Virus record (IMG/VR): IMGVR_UViG_3300006810_000538
Location: 1 to 20,453 of that record
Origin: a virus
Strand: one strand, 5' to 3'
Length of the DNA: 20,453 bases
Position 1 is the stretch's first letter, and each line of letters starts with the position of its first letter. The notes below the pieces were generated by a model. That model ran no database searches. It was not told where the DNA came from and saw nothing but the letters and a program-made list of their open reading frames with translations. This document shows positions 705-18,075 of the stretch, piece by piece. The position numbers were made by a program, and so were the translations under genes.

Positions 705-1595
705 TCAGACGGAAGCAGTGGCATCGACGCCAGCTAAACGAGCAGCTGCGCGACCGTTAATCAGAGCTAAGCCGCAATACCATTCGACGCGAGTGATAAG
801 CTGAGGCTGGCTGAAGGATTCGCCCAGTTCACGGACGGAAACGCCGCCGTTCTGGATTCCGGTCAGAAGGTCCTGGCCGAAGGAAACCACGTAGATGTCC
901 TGTGCGGAAGGGGTGCTGTCAAGGATAGCAACGTTCTTGTGGTCACGATCCAGTTCAAGGACGCGAACACCGCCGTAGGAGAGCTGCTGGTAGCCGAACT
1001 CGTTACGTGAGATCTCGATCTGGCCGTTAGCGCGAGCGTGCTTGCTCAGGTGACGACGTGCAGACTTCGACATGACCAGATACTTGCTACCGCCGTTAGC
1101 GTCGCAGGAGTCGATGGCCTCGTCAAGCTTGCCCAGGTCAAGAGCACCACCGCCGTTAGCGAAGTACTGTGAGGAACCGTTCTGGATACGAGCAGCCAGG
1201 CCGTCGAACTCAGAAGGGGACTGGTTGGAGTCGCCATTAATGAACAGAGCTTCCCAAGCCAAACGCATAGCGCGAACGCGGCTCTGGACCTGGTAAGCCT
1301 TAGCAGATGAGCCCTCCATGTCGATGATGGCACGGTCAACCTTGATGTCGCCACCAAAGAGCTTAAGACTTTCGGACTGCTGGCTTACTTCAGCATAGCT
1401 CTCAGCAAGAGAACCATTGTAGTTACGGAAGCCCACATCAGGAAGGCTCTCTTCGCGCTTCCAGAAAAGACCGTTGCCTTCGATGTTGCGGAAAGGGAGT
1501 GCAGACAGGAGAGGACCAGCAGCAAGTTCGGTTACAACTGCCAGCTCCTGAGGGGTGGAAGCGTGCTTTTGAGCTTCCAGAAGTGTCAATGACAT
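705..1595 (-). CDS. Major capsid protein (HK97 fold)
   Basis: A 296-residue protein that follows the scaffold gene (with an HNH gene between). The sequence reads as a compact HK97-fold capsid protein of the kind lacking a long N-terminal delta domain: N-terminal helix (EAQKHASTPQE), an extended arm with LPFRNIEGNGLFWKR, a long helix around residues 98-116 (KAYQVQSRVRAMRLAWEAL), and a C-terminal P-domain-like end (VEWYCGLALINGRAAARLAG). The length fits the family. No protease gene is visible nearby and there is no obvious cleaved propeptide, so maturation may not need cleavage. ATG at 1595 has AAAGG about 8 bases upstream. A 140-base leader precedes it, holding a stem-loop at 1645-1663, and a terminator follows, so the gene is set up as its own high-yield transcription unit. 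Function is confident by family resemblance and context; no search was run. Confidence 0.88.
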   Translation of the reverse strand: MSLTLLEAQKHASTPQELAVVTELAAGPLLSALPFRNIEGNGLFWKREESLPDVGFRNYNGSLAESYAEVSQQSESLKLFGGDIKVDRAIIDMEGSSAKAYQVQSRVRAMRLAWEALFINGDSNQSPSEFDGLAARIQNGSSQYFANGGGALDLGKLDEAIDSCDANGGSKYLVMSKSARRHLSKHARANGQIEISRNEFGYQQLSYGGVRVLELDRDHKNVAILDSTPSAQDIYVVSFGQDLLTGIQNGGVSVRELGESFSQPQLITRVEWYCGLALINGRAAARLAGVDATASV

Positions 1596-1736: not shown

Positions 1737-2261
1737 CTAGACTTTCGCGCCTTTGGATAGGTTTTCGTCTTTGGTAATGACCTGCAGGTTCCACGGAAGA
1801 TGCGGCCCGCCCTTTGCTAACGGAATAATATGGTCGACATGATACTTGACCCCAGTCTCTCGCGACAGCCGACGAGCATCCTGGTAGCGATACTTGATCA
1901 TAAGCTTCTCTACCTCGGAGCAAGGCCAATCCCTCATGCCACGCCTACGCCTGTCTGTCTTCGCTGCGTAGTACTCTGGATTCTTGTCGTAGTGCTTCCT
2001 GTATCCGTTTCTGTTGCACTCCTTGACCACTTCTGGGTTAGCATCCCTCCATTTCTTGTGCCACCGAGCTTTGGCTTCGGGATTCCTTTTCCCCCACTTC
2101 CTGCGGTGCGCCTCCGCCCTCTCCTTCCCGTCAGCCTTCAACCACCTGTACTGCGTAGTCCTGGCCACTCCGAAGGCTGCTGTGATCTTCCGCTCAGCCG
2201 CTCCGCACGCTGCAGCAACTTCGACCTGGGTTCTTAGTAGTGGTGAGTGCTTGTCGGCCAT
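1737..2261 (-). CDS. HNH endonuclease with N-terminal HTH-like region
   Basis: A 174-residue free-standing HNH nuclease, likely a homing enzyme. The catalytic core is C-terminal: HVDH at residues 141-144, then GG, N158 (PWNLQV) and N167 (KDENLSKG), the usual H-N-N set. It lacks the CxxC zinc pairs of the other HNH protein here. Residues 8-42 look like a helix-turn-helix (AAACGAAERKITAAFGVARTTQYRWL), followed by Arg/Lys-rich repeats each with a 'NP(E)' turn (NPEAKARW, NPEVVKEC, NPEYYAAK), a DNA-contacting pattern known in phage HNH proteins. It sits between scaffold and capsid genes, which normally adjoin, so it is probably an insertion. It begins 17 bases after a terminator and lacks a clear ribosome site, suggesting low expression. 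Confidence 0.85.
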   Translation of the reverse strand: MADKHSPLLRTQVEVAAACGAAERKITAAFGVARTTQYRWLKADGKERAEAHRRKWGKRNPEAKARWHKKWRDANPEVVKECNRNGYRKHYDKNPEYYAAKTDRRRRGMRDWPCSEVEKLMIKYRYQDARRLSRETGVKYHVDHIIPLAKGGPHLPWNLQVITKDENLSKGAKV

Positions 2262-2355: not shown

Positions 2356-3075
2356 TTACTTGAAGGCTTCTTGGAACATCTGGTCAGGGGTAAGAGACGA
2401 GAAGTCCTGACTCACTACGCCGTTGGCATCGGTTCCACCGTAGCCAATTCCAGCACCTGCACCCTTAGAGCCCTTAAAGAAAGTGCCGTAGATAGGGTGA
2501 GACTTGTAGGCCGAGATGTAGTCATCTACGGAAATACGCTTACCAGACTCTTTGTCAAGAACAGGGTCACCGCCTGCGTCAACGACAGTCAAGGAACCAT
2601 CAGGCTCTTGGCGGAAGTTGCCACCGATCTGCTGTGCCATCATGTCAAAGAACGACACGCCGTCAGCTGCGTCAGTACGACCACCAGCAGAATAAAACAC
2701 CTTCTCAAGAGCATACTTCTTCTGGTAGTCCTGCAAGGCAGACTTAGCTGCAGCCGCTTCCCGTGCAGCCTCTTCAGCTTGGCGAGAGTATTTCTGCTCA
2801 ATAAGCTCACGCTGCTCCCCGAACTGGGCTTGGACCTTAGCAGCTTCTGCAGCTTCAGCCTGCAGCTTAGTATACTCCTCAGGGTTAATCTCAGAGAAGC
2901 GCTCCAGTTGACCTTTTGTTTCCTTAAGGTCACGCTCGTACTGCTTCCGTGCTTCCCGTTCAGCCTTAAGAGCCTTCAGGAGATTCTCCGCTTCAGAACG
3001 AGGCATCATGTCGTCGCCTGTTGAAACGGGTGAGGCATTAACTTCCGTCTCGGGAGTCATGTTCTCTTCAGTCAT
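2356..3075 (-). CDS. Capsid assembly scaffold protein
   Basis: A 239-residue protein with classic scaffold features: an acidic disordered N-terminus, then a long charged Ala/Glu/Lys/Gln-rich coiled coil from about residue 28 to 125, then a Gly-rich tail ending in a short helix (LTPDQMFQEAFK) typical of capsid-binding ends. It guides assembly of the capsid protein inside the prohead. It precedes the capsid gene with only the HNH gene between. The ATG has no Shine-Dalgarno sequence; instead a perfect stem-loop (3083-3097) ends 7 bases before it. A terminator follows, so scaffold and capsid are transcriptionally separable. No serine-protease motif was seen, so it is not an obvious protease-scaffold fusion. 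Confidence 0.82.
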   Translation of the reverse strand: MTEENMTPETEVNASPVSTGDDMMPRSEAENLLKALKAEREARKQYERDLKETKGQLERFSEINPEEYTKLQAEAAEAAKVQAQFGEQRELIEQKYSRQAEEAAREAAAAKSALQDYQKKYALEKVFYSAGGRTDAADGVSFFDMMAQQIGGNFRQEPDGSLTVVDAGGDPVLDKESGKRISVDDYISAYKSHPIYGTFFKGSKGAGAGIGYGGTDANGVVSQDFSSLTPDQMFQEAFK

Positions 3076-5617: not shown

Positions 5618-6802
5618 CTATTCACATCTAGGATCAGGTTCGCATGCGCACCCGCTACTGCAAACAAAGCAGTCAGGGCAGTCGTTGTCGCAATTACAGT
5701 CGCACTCCTTGCAGGACTCGGGAGCATTACTCTTATCGCAGACCGTCCTGATATAACAGGTTCCGCCGCCTGCGGTGATAGATCCATTATCAGTACAAGA
5801 AGCACCGTCAGGACAAGGAGGTGGCGGGCCGTCACAGAAGGTTTGCCCATAGCAAGCGCCTGCGCAAGGGTCTCCTTGATCTGGGCACTTGTAGCTGTCC
5901 CGACAGGTGCTAAAGCCGCTAGTCACGTCACATGCGGAGTAGCAGCATTCGAGCTTGACCGGACCGCTGTCGCAATACTTGTACGTCGTATAGCAGGTTT
6001 GACAGTTTTCGCAATCAGTGGTGCAAGCGCCGTCATCGCCACACTTGTCGCACTTGTATGGGCAGCCTTTGTTTTCGCACCAGCAAGGAGCCCCACTGAT
6101 CTTTCCCTTGCAGGCCGTGCCTCTGAAGTCACCAAGGTCGGCGCAATAGGAGCATTCGTCACAGCTGTTGTCGTCGGTACATCCAACGCCTAGCTTTCCG
6201 TTAGCTGCCAAGTAAGAGGTGCAGAACTTGCTGCACCTTTCCGGAGGTGGCGGACAGTTTCCACAGTAGCACTGTACATAACTTCCCATCCTGCAGCACC
6301 TGCCCTGCCCACAACAGACATCGTTGGTACCTTTGCTAGTACTGGTGCCGCTACAGCCTGTCTTGAGGCATTTGCCGTTAAGACTTACCCCGATTAGCCC
6401 GTTTCCTACAGTGCCACCATTCAGCCCTTCCTCAAGGAGGACGTCACCAGGCCTCAGATTGTTTACCGCTTCTTCGTAGACCTCTGCCAGCTCCTCGTCC
6501 ATCAAGAGATAATTAACGGGACCAGATCCGCATTCACCTGGTACTCCACCTACTCCGCTTCCTCCGCTTCCTCCGTTTCCACAACCAGACATATTGCCTG
6601 ACCCGCTAGGCGAGGAGCCCGAGGTCTCTTGTACGCAGATTCCTCCAACGCAGGCCCACCCTGAAGCACAATCAGTGCTATCTTGACAGCCTGTACTATT
6701 GCTTCCTACCACGTTTAGTGGGTTGTAGTTAAGGTTGCCAGATGACAGGAAGTTCTGGGCTTGAGTCTGCTGCTTTTTTAAAAAACCGCTATATCCAGAC
6801 AC
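5618..6802 (-). CDS. Extremely cysteine-rich virion-region protein (394 aa, 54 Cys)
   Basis: Function not recognised. By my count 54 of 394 residues are Cys, 46 of them after about residue 145. The N-terminal 35 residues are ordinary (GTG start, Gln/Asn-rich). A first small Cys module (CQDSTDCASGWACVGGICV) resembles the 'DC..G..CV.G.CV' motif of EGF/knottin-like modules. A Gly/Ser linker and an acidic helical stretch (LLMDEELAEVYEEAVNNL) follow, then dense CxxC, CC and CxC clusters with Pro runs to the end. No signal peptide or membrane segment is apparent. Many close pairs could form disulfides in the extracellular virion or bind metal in the cell. It lies between small tail-tip proteins and the fibre, so a disulfide-laced tip or adhesin is a plausible guess. 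The frame is uninterrupted over 1.2 kb, so it is not spurious. Confidence 0.8.
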   Translation of the reverse strand: MSGYSGFLKKQQTQAQNFLSSGNLNYNPLNVVGSNSTGCQDSTDCASGWACVGGICVQETSGSSPSGSGNMSGCGNGGSGGSGVGGVPGECGSGPVNYLLMDEELAEVYEEAVNNLRPGDVLLEEGLNGGTVGNGLIGVSLNGKCLKTGCSGTSTSKGTNDVCCGQGRCCRMGSYVQCYCGNCPPPPERCSKFCTSYLAANGKLGVGCTDDNSCDECSYCADLGDFRGTACKGKISGAPCWCENKGCPYKCDKCGDDGACTTDCENCQTCYTTYKYCDSGPVKLECCYSACDVTSGFSTCRDSYKCPDQGDPCAGACYGQTFCDGPPPPCPDGASCTDNGSITAGGGTCYIRTVCDKSNAPESCKECDCNCDNDCPDCFVCSSGCACEPDPRCE

Positions 6803-6807
6803 TGTTT

Positions 6808-6834
6808 CTTGGCTAACTGCGTTAGGATGCCAAG
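6808..6834 (-). promoter_or_regulatory. Interrupted stem-loop before the Cys-rich gene start
   Basis: On the minus strand CTTGG...CCAAG encloses CTAAC-GCA-GTTAG, two 5-bp stems with a 4-nt one-sided bulge, ending 5 nt before the GTG start. It overlaps the stop of the upstream 116-residue gene. There is no Shine-Dalgarno sequence in the spacer AAACA. Confidence 0.45.
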
Positions 6835-7172
6835 GTTGAGTAAAATTCCAGATTCGGATCTTTTCCCAGTCCTGTCCTCGGGTCTTGGACGAAACCCCAG
6901 TTCTCGACCGCTCGCCACTCTAAGCTAACCTGGCCATTTCCAACGTTCGCGTACACAGTAACGTACATCGTAACAAAAAGCTCATTTCCATTGCGGTAGA
7001 AGAGAATTTGACCCTCTTTAGTTGCGCTTTGACTTACAGTAGTCACCTGGCCATCGACAACGAAAACTCTGGCCCCCGGTGGCGCTGTTGAGGTTATCGT
7101 GCCTACGACAGTTTTAGCGTCAGCCCTTGTTGTGACGGGAGCTCCAGCTATAACAGGATTGTTAATAGACAT
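6822..7172 (-). CDS. Small beta-rich tail-region protein (116 aa), unknown
   Basis: A 116-residue protein with alternating hydrophobic/polar strands (VVGTITSTAPPGARVFVVDGQ, ILFYRNGNELFVTMYVTVY) and an aromatic C-terminal part. I do not recognise the family. Its ATG overlaps the TAA of the preceding gene (TAATG), so translation is coupled. It belongs to a run of three small genes after the 245-residue protein, all in the tail-tip/fibre stretch, hence probably minor virion proteins or fibre connectors. Confidence 0.7.
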   Translation of the reverse strand: MSINNPVIAGAPVTTRADAKTVVGTITSTAPPGARVFVVDGQVTTVSQSATKEGQILFYRNGNELFVTMYVTVYANVGNGQVSLEWRAVENWGFVQDPRTGLGKDPNLEFYSTLAS

Positions 7173-14400: not shown

Positions 14401-14891
14401 ACCCGAGTCAATACCCCTTCAAGTCTCTTGACCTCTGCAGTTTGCTCTTTTCGGAGCTGCAGGTTGCGGTTGATAGCCTGCCCGTTCTTGCTCATCGTCA
14501 AGCTTTGCTGCTTTAGCAAGTTGAGCTTATCTTTTTGAGCATTCAACTCCTGTTTGACCTTCAGGGCAGACTCGCCCTGGATAGCGACCATTTTTTTGTA
14601 GTCGGCAATCATTGGGTCCAACGTGGTGGCCGCAAGCCGCCTGACCTCCTTGAACTGACCGGCAGAACTGCTCGTCTCGTAACTAACTTTAACCGTGGCT
14701 TCAGTGTTTTTACCTGACAGCTTGGCCTTCATCTTGGCATCTAGCTGAGCAAGCAGTTTATCATTGCCTGCTGCGACGGCTGCCGCTCCTTGCTGAACCA
14801 GCTTCTGGATATCGGCCTCAGCTTTTGTGGCTGACTGACGGTCTATCGTAGGAACGATAAAAAAGTTCGTACCCTTGGTTACGTCAGCCAT
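11472..14891 (-). CDS. Tape measure protein (1139 aa)
   Basis: The tail-length ruler that fills the tube and is ejected with DNA. Visible in order: an N-terminal coiled region (about 1-230), a hydrophobic stretch (about 240-265, WISAVVAGLAAVAGAVGMI), a conserved tape-measure domain (about 270-470, with LAARTTMLGLNTEQTGRY, QVMGKGKLQSEELNQQ), a second amphipathic hydrophobic part (about 505-560), then a roughly 400-residue Lys/Glu/Gln coiled coil (about 590-990). The end GGPVSGGSTYTVNELGTEGFLSASGR is a motif typical of tape-measure C-termini. No peptidase domain was seen. At the usual 0.15 nm per residue the tail would be about 170 nm (inference). AAGGG about 10 bases before the ATG is the ribosome site. 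It follows the terminator at 14926-14950. Confidence 0.92.
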   Translation of the reverse strand: MADVTKGTNFFIVPTIDRQSATKAEADIQKLVQQGAAAVAAGNDKLLAQLDAKMKAKLSGKNTEATVKVSYETSSSAGQFKEVRRLAATTLDPMIADYKKMVAIQGESALKVKQELNAQKDKLNLLKQQSLTMSKNGQAINRNLQLRKEQTAEVKRLEGVLTRVSTLSSLKGQLREESQKLSMMSQYNVELNKQGQLVTVVNKKWAEQSKVVQGLSGQVNAAGNAAKGFGAKIQASGAAMQAAFGWISAVVAGLAAVAGAVGMITGRVKDIQAIKLTFDGLGQSIQAQNAILGSAKNIALSYGVSLRKIEGAFRRLGPAILESGGTLKDTEGAIKSLAARTTMLGLNTEQTGRYIEAFAQVMGKGKLQSEELNQQFSELDGGLRGQLKNWLAANKGITDFETAMKNGEITSGIFLEAFEAINEEIRTKFLRSIGDTQQAITKMGSEGGMTLNQLNAKLQTLTSIGLESVGKALAPLGKELMKIYAAFIQVFTKIATEMPGIQALFQGLGHVLGVIAKVAVNKLLLGFGMLMKAIDLAVQGLMKLYEALKNIPGLGGILKGLEQAGEALNNNFDKSIDIFSKLSDETTGAKAELAKYNDELKNLAEQQRTGAITQEEYAKKEAEIMARRTAALQAQAQKELDIENEKLGQMVEARNKQLERDEQLMNRKIETINSAKDQELAAIDSVIAGLERQKEATDRVYDAKIDSVKRSAEEVKNSIDKEISALNSQKESVKAFYSNRIEAVKDYYSKVKAEMDAAHSKEMAQIDAAIAKAKQRHSASLGSLDNGPQKQKLERMQIRELNKQIAAETDQYKKQELKAQLESILNSKEKAQLEKQYAEEMKKLEEDKAKKEKEQAEEKKRLDAEEKERVKELQEAQQQALEDIASAVQGLVDQKKEATQQEKEDIRAIQDAKKEAQNAYDDMIDEEKEKRKSVTKAALKQIDELKKAHKKEQQAVEDIEWEMRKMVDTQGDISAAADRTTKGALTRQLNKVKLIRQEMDKINAGGGGTGGNSGVRFAGGPVSGGSTYTVNELGTEGFLSASGRMSEIKAPAFGDWKAPSSGSVIPAHVWKGIKASQNTEINMPRSVSPGNAVARAISTINNSTGDHVQNSVTIQAINPTQAASDIMVQLAKIKRLRYN

Positions 14892-14925
14892 TTACCAAAT
14901 ACCCTTGCTGGCTTTAGCTTTCCAT

Positions 14926-14950
14926 AAAAAAAAGGGCTTGTAAGGCCCTT
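14926..14950 (-). terminator. Intrinsic terminator after the tail tube extension
   Basis: On the minus strand AAGGGC-(7 nt)-GCCCTT, a 6-bp stem, is followed directly by a T run (eight Ts in all, the first two within the stem). It lies 35 nt after the TAA that closes the tube extension frame and 35 nt before the tape-measure ATG. This position separates the high-copy tube from the low-copy tape measure. Confidence 0.88.
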
Positions 14951-14984
14951 GGTGTTTTTTGCCGTAAGTTCTATGGTTACGGAC

Positions 14985-15272
14985 TTAGGAAATGGATTCA
15001 ACTTCACCATTGTAAATTCCTGACCCGCCACCAGTGGTTTCAGTGATAACAACGGACTCACCAACCTCGAAGTTAGTACCCGGGTCGGTAATTGTAACAC
15101 TGCCGGAGATTTCTCCGCCGACAGTATTGACTGTGCCCTGAGCTGTATCACCATTGGTTCCACCTAAGATGGAAACAGGTACTGCCGTTGCGTCAGCGTT
15201 GGCCGGAGAGAAAAACTCTGTTAGGGTAAAGTTGTTCAGGGTGGCGATGCCACCCGTAGAACCTCCAGTCAG
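14985..15272 (-). CDS. In-frame extension of the tail tube (95 codons), probably by UAG readthrough
   Basis: Directly after the tube's UAG (15273-15275) the same frame is open for 95 codons to a TAA. It holds no ATG, GTG or TTG codon at its start, so it is not an ordinary gene. The product is Gly/Thr/Val-rich and beta-like: TGGSTGGIATLNNFTLTEFF, then ISGSVTITDPGTNFEVGES and an ending YNGEVESIS. Its VTITDPGTNFEVGESVVI pattern matches a repeat in the 245-residue protein at 7647-8384. C-terminal Ig-like or beta tube domains made by recoding are known in siphophages (usually by frameshift, for example SPP1 gp17.1*). Here the frame is unchanged, so stop readthrough fits. A less likely alternative is initiation at a rare AUC 12 nt after GGAGGT. 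Confidence 0.6.
   Translation of the reverse strand: MTGGSTGGIATLNNFTLTEFFSPANADATAVPVSILGGTNGDTAQGTVNTVGGEISGSVTITDPGTNFEVGESVVITETTGGGSGIYNGEVESIS
15239..15255 (-). promoter_or_regulatory. Strong stem-loop 17 nt downstream of tail tube UAG
   Basis: On the minus strand GGGTGGC-ATC-GCCACCC, a perfect 7-bp GC-rich stem with 3-nt loop, lies inside the extension frame and has no T run. It is a candidate cis-stimulator of readthrough, or a structure presenting AUC as a start. Confidence 0.55.
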
Positions 15273-16424: not shown

Positions 16425-16469
16425 ATGAAAGAACATTTCTCCAGTGGTGTCGTCTTTACTAATATCTGA
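16425..16469 (+). CDS. Possible 14-codon leader ORF coupled to the HNH gene
   Basis: ATG at 16425 has the better ribosome site (CCGGAGG about 9 bases upstream) and encodes MKEHFSSGVVFTNI, ending with TGA one base before the HNH ATG at 16471 (TGAGATG). The layout suggests translational coupling that limits nuclease synthesis. It could also be chance. Confidence 0.3.
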   Translation: MKEHFSSGVVFTNI

Positions 16470-16470
16470 G

Positions 16471-16923
16471 ATGCACCGATCCCAGGATTACCTCCCCGTT
16501 TACGAGAGGATTTCAGATTATTTGTACAACATGTCAGCCCTGACACGCCGAGAAGCTCGCCACCAATGGCGCACTGCTATTAAAGAATGCTGGAACAATC
16601 GTTGCGCCTACTGCGGTGCTACACCTATTGTCGACGAATCTCTTACAGACTTGACAATTGATCACGTCAGGCCTAAGAGCAACGGAGGTGAGGACAGGAC
16701 CACGAATTGTATTCCCGCTTGCCAAAAATGCAACCAAGACAAGTCTAGTCAAGAATGGATGGCCTGGTTTCGAATGCAGCCCTTCTACACCATCGAAGCA
16801 GAGTGGCGCATTCAACAATGGCTAAAAGGCGGGATCAACGGCTTTGGCCCGTACTCCGAGGAGGACGTCAAAATCGTTGAAGAATACGCCAATAAGATGA
16901 TTGGAGAGTGGCCCTCTAGCTGA
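16471..16923 (+). CDS. HNH homing-type endonuclease (zinc-bound), opposite strand
   Basis: A 150-residue protein from ATG 16471 (upstream GTG codons at 16444/16447 and an internal ATG at 16531 are alternatives). The core is a Cys-type HNH: CAYCG (C45, C48), DH at 64-65 (LTIDHVRPKSNGG), N79, then CQKCN (C84, C87, N88). The C-terminal part WMAWFRMQPFYT and the preceding RREARHQWRTAIKECW match an HNH family frequent in cyanophages (from memory). Unlike the surrounding operon it is on the plus strand, between the chaperone's second part and the tail terminator, and its 3' end overlaps the chaperone 3' end by 8 bases. These are signs of insertion as a mobile gene. No flanking direct repeats or intron-like boundaries were seen. 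Confidence 0.88.
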   Translation: MHRSQDYLPVYERISDYLYNMSALTRREARHQWRTAIKECWNNRCAYCGATPIVDESLTDLTIDHVRPKSNGGEDRTTNCIPACQKCNQDKSSQEWMAWFRMQPFYTIEAEWRIQQWLKGGINGFGPYSEEDVKIVEEYANKMIGEWPSS

Positions 16924-17530
16924 GGGTTACATCCTCCTCTGCAATGACCTTGGTAGGAATCTCGGGCAACGTCAGGTCGTAGAAGTTACCAGCAGGATCC
17001 GAGAAGGTTCGGACCTCGCCTGACGCCGATTCCAAGGCAATAAGGAACCCCTTGTACCCCGCCTCTGTTTTGCGCGGACCGACAAGGATGGCATCATGCG
17101 CAAAAAGCGCATATTGACCCCCTACTCTGCCTCGGGCAGAAGGAGAAACATCCTTGTAACAGAACAACGCCCAGCCAGGCAGCTCTTTGGCTTTGATCAT
17201 ATGAACATAGCAGGCTGCGTAGTACCCCGCAGGTCCTTGGCCCTCCAAAGGCTTGAACATTGCAAAATCTAACGGGCTTGCAGGTTTCTTGCTGCTTTTA
17301 GGATCTCTTTGACTGTTTGCGTAAACTGCAGTATTAAGAGCCACTGGCAATTCAAGCTCATGCAGCTCTGTACGACGCAGATCCAGCATCTTGTGATAAC
17401 CCCTCAGAACATATTCGTAAGGTAGCTGGTAAAAGCGATCCCAAGAGTACTCAGGGTCTCCTGGGAATGCCTTTTTCATCTTCCAGTAAATGTCCTCCCA
17501 GTCGGGCTCGACACTTTCACCAGCGCCTAC
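16916..17530 (-). CDS. Tail assembly chaperone, second part (T-like), made by -1 frameshift
   Basis: The -1 frame is open from the slippery site (17530) through an in-frame ATG at 17479 to TAG at 16918-16916, about 204 codons. Residues before the ATG (VGAGESVEPDWEDIYWK) continue naturally into MKKAFPGDPEYSWDRFYQLPYEYV. The ATG has no good ribosome site (GGAGG is 14 bases away), which favours expression as a fusion. By analogy with lambda G/GT this part would bind the tape measure while the first part binds tube protein. Its sequence is mixed alpha/beta (YYAACYVHMIKAKELPGWALF) and I recognise no named domain. Fusion length would be about 386 residues. It could alternatively be an independent gene of 187 residues. 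Confidence 0.75.
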   Translation of the reverse strand, partial: VGAGESVEPDWEDIYWKMKKAFPGDPEYSWDRFYQLPYEYVLRGYHKMLDLRRTELHELELPVALNTAVYANSQRDPKSSKKPASPLDFAMFKPLEGQGPAGYYAACYVHMIKAKELPGWALFCYKDVSPSARGRVGGQYALFAHDAILVGPRKTEAGYKGFLIALESASGEVRTFSDPAGNFYDLTLPEIPTKVIAEEDVTLS

Positions 17531-18075
17531 TTTTTTTCGATTTCGCCAAGATCCTCGCTGTCAGGACCCTCTTCGTCGCCTTTGTCGACAAGGCGCTCCA
17601 GGCTCTTCATCTCTTCGTCCCTAAAAAGGCCCGACAAGGCGTCTACAAGGTCTTCGTGGAGGTCGATGACGTCAGTCATCCCAATCTCATCATTGACGCG
17701 ATACAGGAGCATACAGTAGGCAGCCATAAGCTGCTTCTTTTGCTCACTCGCCATCATCGTTGTTGCAAGTTCAGCAATTTCGTCAGCGAACTCGTCGGCA
17801 ATAGGATATTCACACTTTTCGGGCTCACTGACAGCCAGTACGACCTGCTGATAGGCGTCCTGCTGGCCTAGCTCGAACTTAGCGCCAACAGCGCGAGAGA
17901 TCCTCATTACCATTTTCAATACATCGTCCTGAGCGTTGACATTCGCCATGAACGATTTCTCTCCTACAGTTAGGAATCCCTTGCGCTCGATCTCAATTTT
18001 ACCGCTAACATCGCTGCCTAGCGTCTCAATGCGAGAGTTGACCCTAGGTGCGACCACGAAAGGAAGCTTACTCAT
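17527..18075 (-). CDS. Tail assembly chaperone, first part (G-like)
   Basis: A 182-residue acidic protein: a short beta N-terminus (LPFVVAPRVNSRIETLG), strands, then helices (DDVLKMVMRISRAVGAKFELG, ADEFADEIAELATTMMASEQ) and a strongly acidic tail ending in EIEKK. This matches the general make-up of siphophage G-type chaperones. The last codons GAA AAA AAG TAG contain the A AAA AAG slippery heptamer, and the -1 frame continues into the next ORF. It keeps tube or tape-measure protein soluble and sets their joining; it is not expected in the virion. It follows the neck genes and is preceded by a 6-bp stem-loop (18084-18098) ending 8 nt before the ATG, with no Shine-Dalgarno sequence in the spacer. 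Confidence 0.78.
   Translation of the reverse strand: MSKLPFVVAPRVNSRIETLGSDVSGKIEIERKGFLTVGEKSFMANVNAQDDVLKMVMRISRAVGAKFELGQQDAYQQVVLAVSEPEKCEYPIADEFADEIAELATTMMASEQKKQLMAAYCMLLYRVNDEIGMTDVIDLHEDLVDALSGLFRDEEMKSLERLVDKGDEEGPDSEDLGEIEKK
17530..17536 (-). promoter_or_regulatory. Programmed -1 frameshift site (A AAA AAG)
   Basis: In frame GAA AAA AAG TAG gives heptamer A AAA AAG in the exact X XXY YYZ register of E. coli dnaX, immediately before the zero-frame stop. A GAGGA lies about 14 bases upstream, a possible Shine-Dalgarno-like stimulator. Downstream only a short GTCG/CGAC stem is seen. After slippage the next codon is GTA and the -1 frame runs to 16916. Confidence 0.82.

Follow-up and report, generated by a model that had tools for sequence, protein, structure and literature searches.

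Evidence for a programmed −1 ribosomal frameshift joining two putative tail assembly chaperone genes in a family of marine cyanophages

Do two adjoining reading frames in the tail region of a phage related to marine cyanophages encode two separate proteins, or are they halves of one gene which is read through by a slip of the ribosome? The question is raised by the IMG/VR virus record IMGVR_UViG_3300006810_000538, analysed here over positions 1 to 20,453; this whole stretch of 20,453 bases, probably a fragment, is referred to as the window. The nearest named relatives of its source phage are the Synechococcus phages S-CBS2 and S-CRES1 to 3 and the Prochlorococcus phage P-SS2. An original prediction, made from the letters of the window, had proposed a programmed −1 frameshift in a tail assembly chaperone gene. 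On comparison with homologous loci it appears very likely that the two frames, termed ORF A and ORF B below, constitute one gene with a programmed −1 ribosomal frameshift and act as a tail assembly chaperone pair. Frameshifted tail gene pairs are of a known kind; new are the members in this cyanophage family. In the open literature searched (titles and abstract openings), no description was found of the frameshift in cyanophages of this family, nor of the switching of its heptamer, the position of the pair or the conserved element described below.

The junction of ORF A and ORF B

The elements of the junction in the window are as follows.

18075-17527, minus strand: ORF A, zero-frame product of 182 amino acids, aligned with its relatives; G-like and proposed to be the abundant chaperone
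17536-17530, minus strand: slippery heptamer A_AAA_AAG in the register of ORF A, with the zero-frame TAG (17529-17527) directly after it
17480..17530, minus strand: 17 codons reachable only via a −1 shift, VGAGESVEPDWEDIYWK, among them that of Trp16 of B, which is nearly invariant
16916..17530, minus strand: ORF B, the −1 frame extension of 204 residues past the slip; GT-like when fused to A

On the minus strand, the 3′ end of ORF A reads ATC GAA AAA AAG TAG; the predicted ending of the zero-frame gene, GAA AAA AAG TAG with a dnaX-type heptamer in exact register, is thereby confirmed letter for letter. The same is true of what was said to follow: after a −1 slip GTA is read at 17530, 17 open codons lead up to an ATG at 17479, and the frame stays open until the stop at 16918-16916. 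We infer from this arrangement that most ribosomes would end A at the TAG and release the 182-residue protein, while in a fraction of them the tRNAs of the P and A sites would shift back by one base from A_AAA_AAG to AAA AAA, after which translation through B would yield an A-B fusion of 386 residues (182 + 204).

The heptamer A_AAA_AAG is also that of E. coli dnaX, where, as described in PMC5009743, the shift yields a short product; in the window, it is the longer product that arises from the shift, and no codon separates the heptamer from the stop.

Frame and heptamer across the relatives

Relatives of A and B were gathered from IMG/VR and from phage records, and both genes were located by profiles. 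B was present at 154 places, 152 of which also have A; the other two (L079 and L089) have no A on the contig and were dropped, and in L012 and L155 A is present in part only. Merging of loci with 240 identical nt at the junction left 90 distinct junctions, with the window counted together with L002. The tree of B was calculated with a quick method from 89 rows, L096 being too short for inclusion. A scan of bacterial genomes gave a single short match, in Massilia.

The original prediction had suggested to check whether heptamer and frame relation are kept in related phages, and both are: all 90 distinct junctions place B in the −1 frame with respect to A, and in 89 of them the A/B overlap contains a canonical slippery heptamer in the A register. 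Most frequent is AAAAAAG (53 junctions, one of them also carrying GGGAAAA), followed by GGGAAAG (30, one of them also carrying AAAGGGC); five junctions have GGGAAAA alone and one has AAAAAAA. Four canonical heptamers account for 90 of the 1298 A-register positions within the overlaps; outside them, the counts are 3 of 15260 for the remainder of A and 3 of 14619 for the body of B. When the codons at the end of A are shuffled a canonical heptamer is expected in 1.4% of overlaps, against the 89 of 90 observed. The zero-frame stop directly follows the heptamer in 52 of 89 junctions (counting the last heptamer of each junction) and may be as far as 53 codons past it; in P-SS2 the distance is 39 codons. 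The arrangement is thus a family-wide feature of these phages of ocean cyanobacteria.

Along the tree of B, the heptamer has changed between A-type and G-type at least five times, at least three of these changes being forced by well-supported branches. As the type of heptamer switches while the frame stays, what selection keeps is slippability and not a particular sequence. The switching bears on a second way in which a fusion could arise, namely transcriptional slippage on a run of A residues, for which the window itself would be suited, with seven A residues preceding the G. The same place and register are, however, taken by GGGAAAG or GGGAAAA in 36 of the 89 junctions with a heptamer, where most A-runs comprise three or four residues; GGGAAAG, with only three A, argues for slippage of tRNAs on the ribosome and against slippage of a polymerase on an A-run. 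Further, the site always lies in the register of tRNA slippage, which polymerase slippage would not need. Transcriptional slippage is, of all readings considered here, the one to which we give the least credence. Taken with the constancy of frame and heptamer, the repeated switches make a programmed −1 ribosomal frameshift at the A/B junction, as originally predicted, all but certain in our judgment. They also provide a natural series in which a slip site went back and forth between dnaX-type and lambda-type at least five times under a constant frame relation, and which should be useful for testing what phage frameshifts need on cyanobacterial ribosomes.

A single junction departs from the pattern. 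Loss of the heptamer with both proteins intact, or the two ORFs in unrelated frames, had been named in advance as findings that would speak against the prediction; unrelated frames occur in none of the 90 junctions, but the heptamer is lost in one, that of L032 (identical in L034, near 3001). It reads ACG GAA AAG TAA, that is, GGAAAAG, with both ORFs open, and among its closest relatives on the tree the site is GGGAAAG or GGGAAAA. This junction counts against the strict form of the frameshift claim. Since it retains an AAG preceded by A, slippage of a single tRNA is possible there; A_AAG is mentioned in PMC5009743 as being prone to shifting in E. coli.

Homologous pairs with the −1 relation and a heptamer in register are present in S-CBS2 (gp015/gp016), S-CRES1 (gp72/gp73), S-CRES3 (gp79/gp80) and P-SS2 (ORFs 064/065), the heptamer of S-CRES3 and P-SS2 being GGGAAAG rather than AAAAAAG. 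In P-SS2, ORF 064 corresponds to 34537-35211 and ORF 065 to 35232-35765, a numbering inferred from their place between ORFs 063 and 066. All four pairs are annotated as separate genes, with B starting approximately 116 nt past the heptamer in S-CBS2 and S-CRES3, 140 nt in P-SS2 (ACT65627) and 203 nt in S-CRES1.

Could B nevertheless be a gene of its own, whose translation starts at the ATG at 17479 or by re-initiation, with the A-run merely incidental? This ATG is kept in the clade of the window, though not in the family at large, and a GGGAGG is present 14 nt upstream of it, which is too far for an ordinary start. The original prediction, which had B without a ribosome site, was therefore nearly right; a site-like sequence does exist, but its spacing is too long. 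Against a separate gene stands the conservation of the B protein, which begins at the slip site and thus upstream of the ATG of the window; Trp16, encoded in the stretch reachable only by the shift, is kept in at least 90% of 86 members. Moreover, 42 of 89 junctions have no ATG within the first 60 codons past the slip site, and frame and heptamer are kept in 90 and 89, respectively, of the 90 junctions. We consider an independent B very improbable, hardly more credible than transcriptional slippage. If judged by where conserved coding begins, namely at the slip site, the deposited starts of B in S-CBS2, S-CRES1, S-CRES3 and P-SS2 are too late, and truncated gene calls are thereby corrected in at least four deposited genomes.

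Candidate stimulators around the slip site

Two further elements of the window, one on either side of the heptamer, come into question as stimulators of the predicted frameshift.

17549..17560, minus strand: Shine-Dalgarno-like stretch, GCGAGGAT and neighbours, 12-16 nt before the heptamer (usual distance in the family, 3-7 nt)
17461..17523, minus strand: hyperconserved stretch which starts 6 nt past the heptamer; candidate hairpin 17523-17483, or candidate H-type pseudoknot reaching 17461

The dnaX cassette of E. coli has a Shine-Dalgarno-like stimulator upstream of its slip site, and at the level of the family the cyanophage junctions may resemble it in this respect: among 89 junctions, pairing with the anti-Shine-Dalgarno sequence of 16S rRNA 3-7 nt before the heptamer exceeds that of codon shuffles, at approximately −3.5 to −4.4 versus −2.1 to −2.4. 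In the window the corresponding stretch is farther away, and it is possible that it acts as an upstream stimulator.

On the downstream side, the 66 nt past the slip fold better than synonymous shuffles in the GGGAAAG clusters 13, 15, 16, 17, 20 and 22 (z about −2 to −6.7), and also in the A-type clusters 7, 9 and 32; no such excess was found in the GGGAAAG clusters 1, 2, 19, 23 and 33 or in many A-type clusters. The mean z of 33 clusters is −1.07 (standard error 0.29) and falls to about zero beyond 250 nt. Downstream folding is not a family-wide rule. When the folds are read by eye, the stem often starts 6 nt past the heptamer. Stems named by hand in 31 rows, mostly GGGAAAG, show covariation above that of shuffles and of slid controls, the best pair, CG to GC, being one that may reflect a single old change; a consensus fold of the same 31 rows by RNAalifold has zero pairs, because the stems seem to slide between clusters. 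At 2983-2995 of locus L080 two heptamers overlap, GGGAAAA followed by AAAAAAG, and only the first leaves the 6-nt spacer of the relatives.

The clade of the window is characterized by conservation at the nucleotide level. Over the first 20 codons past the slip, the identity of synonymous codons is 0.96 to 1.00, versus approximately 0.5 over most of B, and exact matches to a 24-nt core of the hyperconserved stretch occur in 10 IMG/VR contigs, all of them members of this clade. The hairpin with its 6-nt spacer is nearly unchanged there (7 distinct rows, 99% of cells paired; weaker in L057); because it is so invariant, it provides no evidence of pairing. The energy of the downstream fold in this clade is ordinary and does not differ significantly from that of synonymous shuffles (z −0.3 to −2.2; +1.3 in L057). 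The pseudoknot considered for the element of the window was matched by 19 of 200 synonymous shuffles and was not retained; in a search for pseudoknots with 25 of the 89 rows, outcomes varied widely, with three rows having none. The simplest guess is that the hyperconserved element is a frameshift stimulator.

An overlapping gene on the other strand (ORF 17467-17871, plus strand) was considered as another source of the hyperconservation and rejected, as it is not generally kept: of eight clade members, three have 0 or 1 stops in its frame over this stretch, one stop being expected at its end, whereas five have 2 to 5. Matches to it by tblastn were obtained in 10 of 90 loci.

The tail module and the function of the pair

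The genes which surround the pair in the window are the following.

18636-18112, minus strand: neck or tail-completion gene, upstream of A (phrog_5, E 2.9e-8)
16444-16923, plus strand: antisense HNH gene, adjoining the 3′ end of B
16349-15915: gene downstream of the HNH gene
15839-15273, minus strand: major tail protein gene (phrog_38654 'tail protein', E 4.8e-59, plus several major tail protein families)
14891-11472, minus strand: tape measure gene (PF20155, E 1.5e-17)

The pair therefore sits in a tail module, with a neck-like gene upstream and the genes for the major tail and tape measure proteins downstream. A match to major tail proteins is found downstream of the pair in 79 of 90 loci and starts, among the 40 rows listed, approximately 1.0-1.5 kb past the end of B. 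This is not the usual place of such a pair, which in lambda and HK97 comes after the major tail protein gene and before the tape measure gene; the cyanophage pair precedes the major tail protein gene.

The likeness to the tape measure chaperone genes G and GT of lambda, which the original prediction had asserted, is thus partial. It holds for the mechanism, in which a −1 slip close to the 3′ end of one ORF would lead into the next, and for the general place in the tail module, and B has weak T-like matches; it does not hold for gene order. The heptamer of lambda G, G_GGA_AAG, which served as a control, is in register six codons before the stop and is the one seen in 30 of the 90 junctions of this family, whereas the window has A_AAA_AAG with the stop directly after. 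There is no detectable sequence kinship between lambda G and A, and lambda T has 144 residues compared to the 204 of the B extension. HK97 gp13/gp14 is likewise a tail gene pair annotated with a −1 frameshift, different from A/B in gene order and sequence. By analogy to gpG and gpGT of lambda, the short form would coat the tape measure protein and the fusion would recruit the tail tube subunit, the rate of slipping setting the ratio between the two during tail assembly.

Protein comparisons are less telling than the position. ORF A has no significant match to any named family, and NCBIfam gave nothing useful. All 86 members of B belong to phrog_34388, to which no function is assigned. B matches PF06223 (Phage_tail_T) weakly, in 15 of 86 members with a best E of 6.4e-4 and a best score of 20.5 bits, below the cut-off of 25.9, and phrog_5297 ('tail protein') in 6 of 86 with a best value of 1.6e-4. 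Comparison by hhalign was negative for B with seven lambda-T-like proteins (lambda T and six relatives; probability 2%), for B with lambda T, and for A with lambda G and HK97 gp13 (under 1%). In the AlphaFold2 model of A (mean pLDDT 83.8), a helical body is preceded by a beta hairpin at the N-terminus. Among solved structures neither A nor B has a convincing counterpart. A structure search of the PDB with the models of A and B gave no match at E < 0.001; in BFVD, the best match of the A model is F4YCJ6 (E 1e-15, unnamed), further top matches are unnamed proteins as well, and several low-ranking matches labelled as chaperones have E values of 0.4 to 1.2. In VIA-align nothing above Z 3.9 was obtained with the B model; the A model resembled pores of ion channels (Z up to 8.0), a likeness which was set aside since it looks like a common helical arrangement.

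Further information comes from the named relatives. In S-CBS2, gp015 and gp016 are labelled 'hypothetical' amid genes labelled structural. For P-SS2, mass spectrometry of purified particles detected ORFs 061-063 and 066-069, according to Table 2 of PMC2784084, and the homologues of A and B, ORFs 064 and 065, are absent from this table of virion proteins. The table takes only ORFs with database, peptide or metagenome matches, so that absence from it means that no peptides were reported (PMC2784084). This fits a chaperone which leaves before the tail is completed; it is a non-detection in a distant relative (B is 31% identical) and not proof of a chaperone role. In S-CRES1, no gene is annotated between the major tail protein and tape measure genes, so a rival candidate for the chaperone is not annotated there.

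These observations also have to be weighed against the idea that the frameshift is real and the pair serves another function in tail or neck assembly. Such a function would agree with the weak or absent homology to known chaperones, with the location ahead of the major tail protein gene, and with the B extension being longer than lambda T. The T-like matches of B speak for a chaperone instead, as do the chaperone-labelled structure matches of A, all with E above 0.4, the lack of an annotated rival in S-CRES1 and the P-SS2 virion table (PMC2784084). Another assembly function thus seems unlikely, if less so than the two alternatives to the frameshift itself. The chaperone label of the original prediction is likely but less certain than the frameshift; tail-module position, weak T-like matches of B and the non-detection of the homologues in P-SS2 virions favour it, while the lack of a significant family match for A, the negative profile comparisons and the different gene order do not. 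Given the frameshift, we infer with high confidence that the pair functions as tail assembly chaperones, which would assign a likely function to two so far unlabelled gene families in siphoviruses of marine Synechococcus and Prochlorococcus.

An antisense HNH-type gene lies tail to tail with B in 89 of the 89 loci that have at least 500 nt past B (in L016 at about 6674-7030, minus strand); beside B of P-SS2 it is unannotated, though the HNH region is readable. Such a fixed linkage is unlike that of a roaming homing endonuclease. It is conceivable, albeit doubtful, that the pair moved from its usual place and now forms a fixed cassette with the HNH-type gene and, in the clade of the window, with the hyperconserved RNA element, and that the three cooperate. 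If so, the slip rate might, for example, be tuned by the RNA element or by transcripts running from the HNH gene against B, and the HNH protein would be kept as a phage function and not as a homing parasite.

Some minor features of the gene order in the window may be added. A small ORF (14879-15163, minus strand) with a GTG start is located between the major tail protein and tape measure genes, overlapping the start of the latter; of the 90 junction loci, not all of which are long enough to cover this region, 6 have related sequence. In transcription order, the genes for the major head protein (705-1595, minus strand) and the scaffold (2356-3075, minus strand) come after the tail genes, with an endonuclease VII-like gene (1737-2261, minus strand) between the two.
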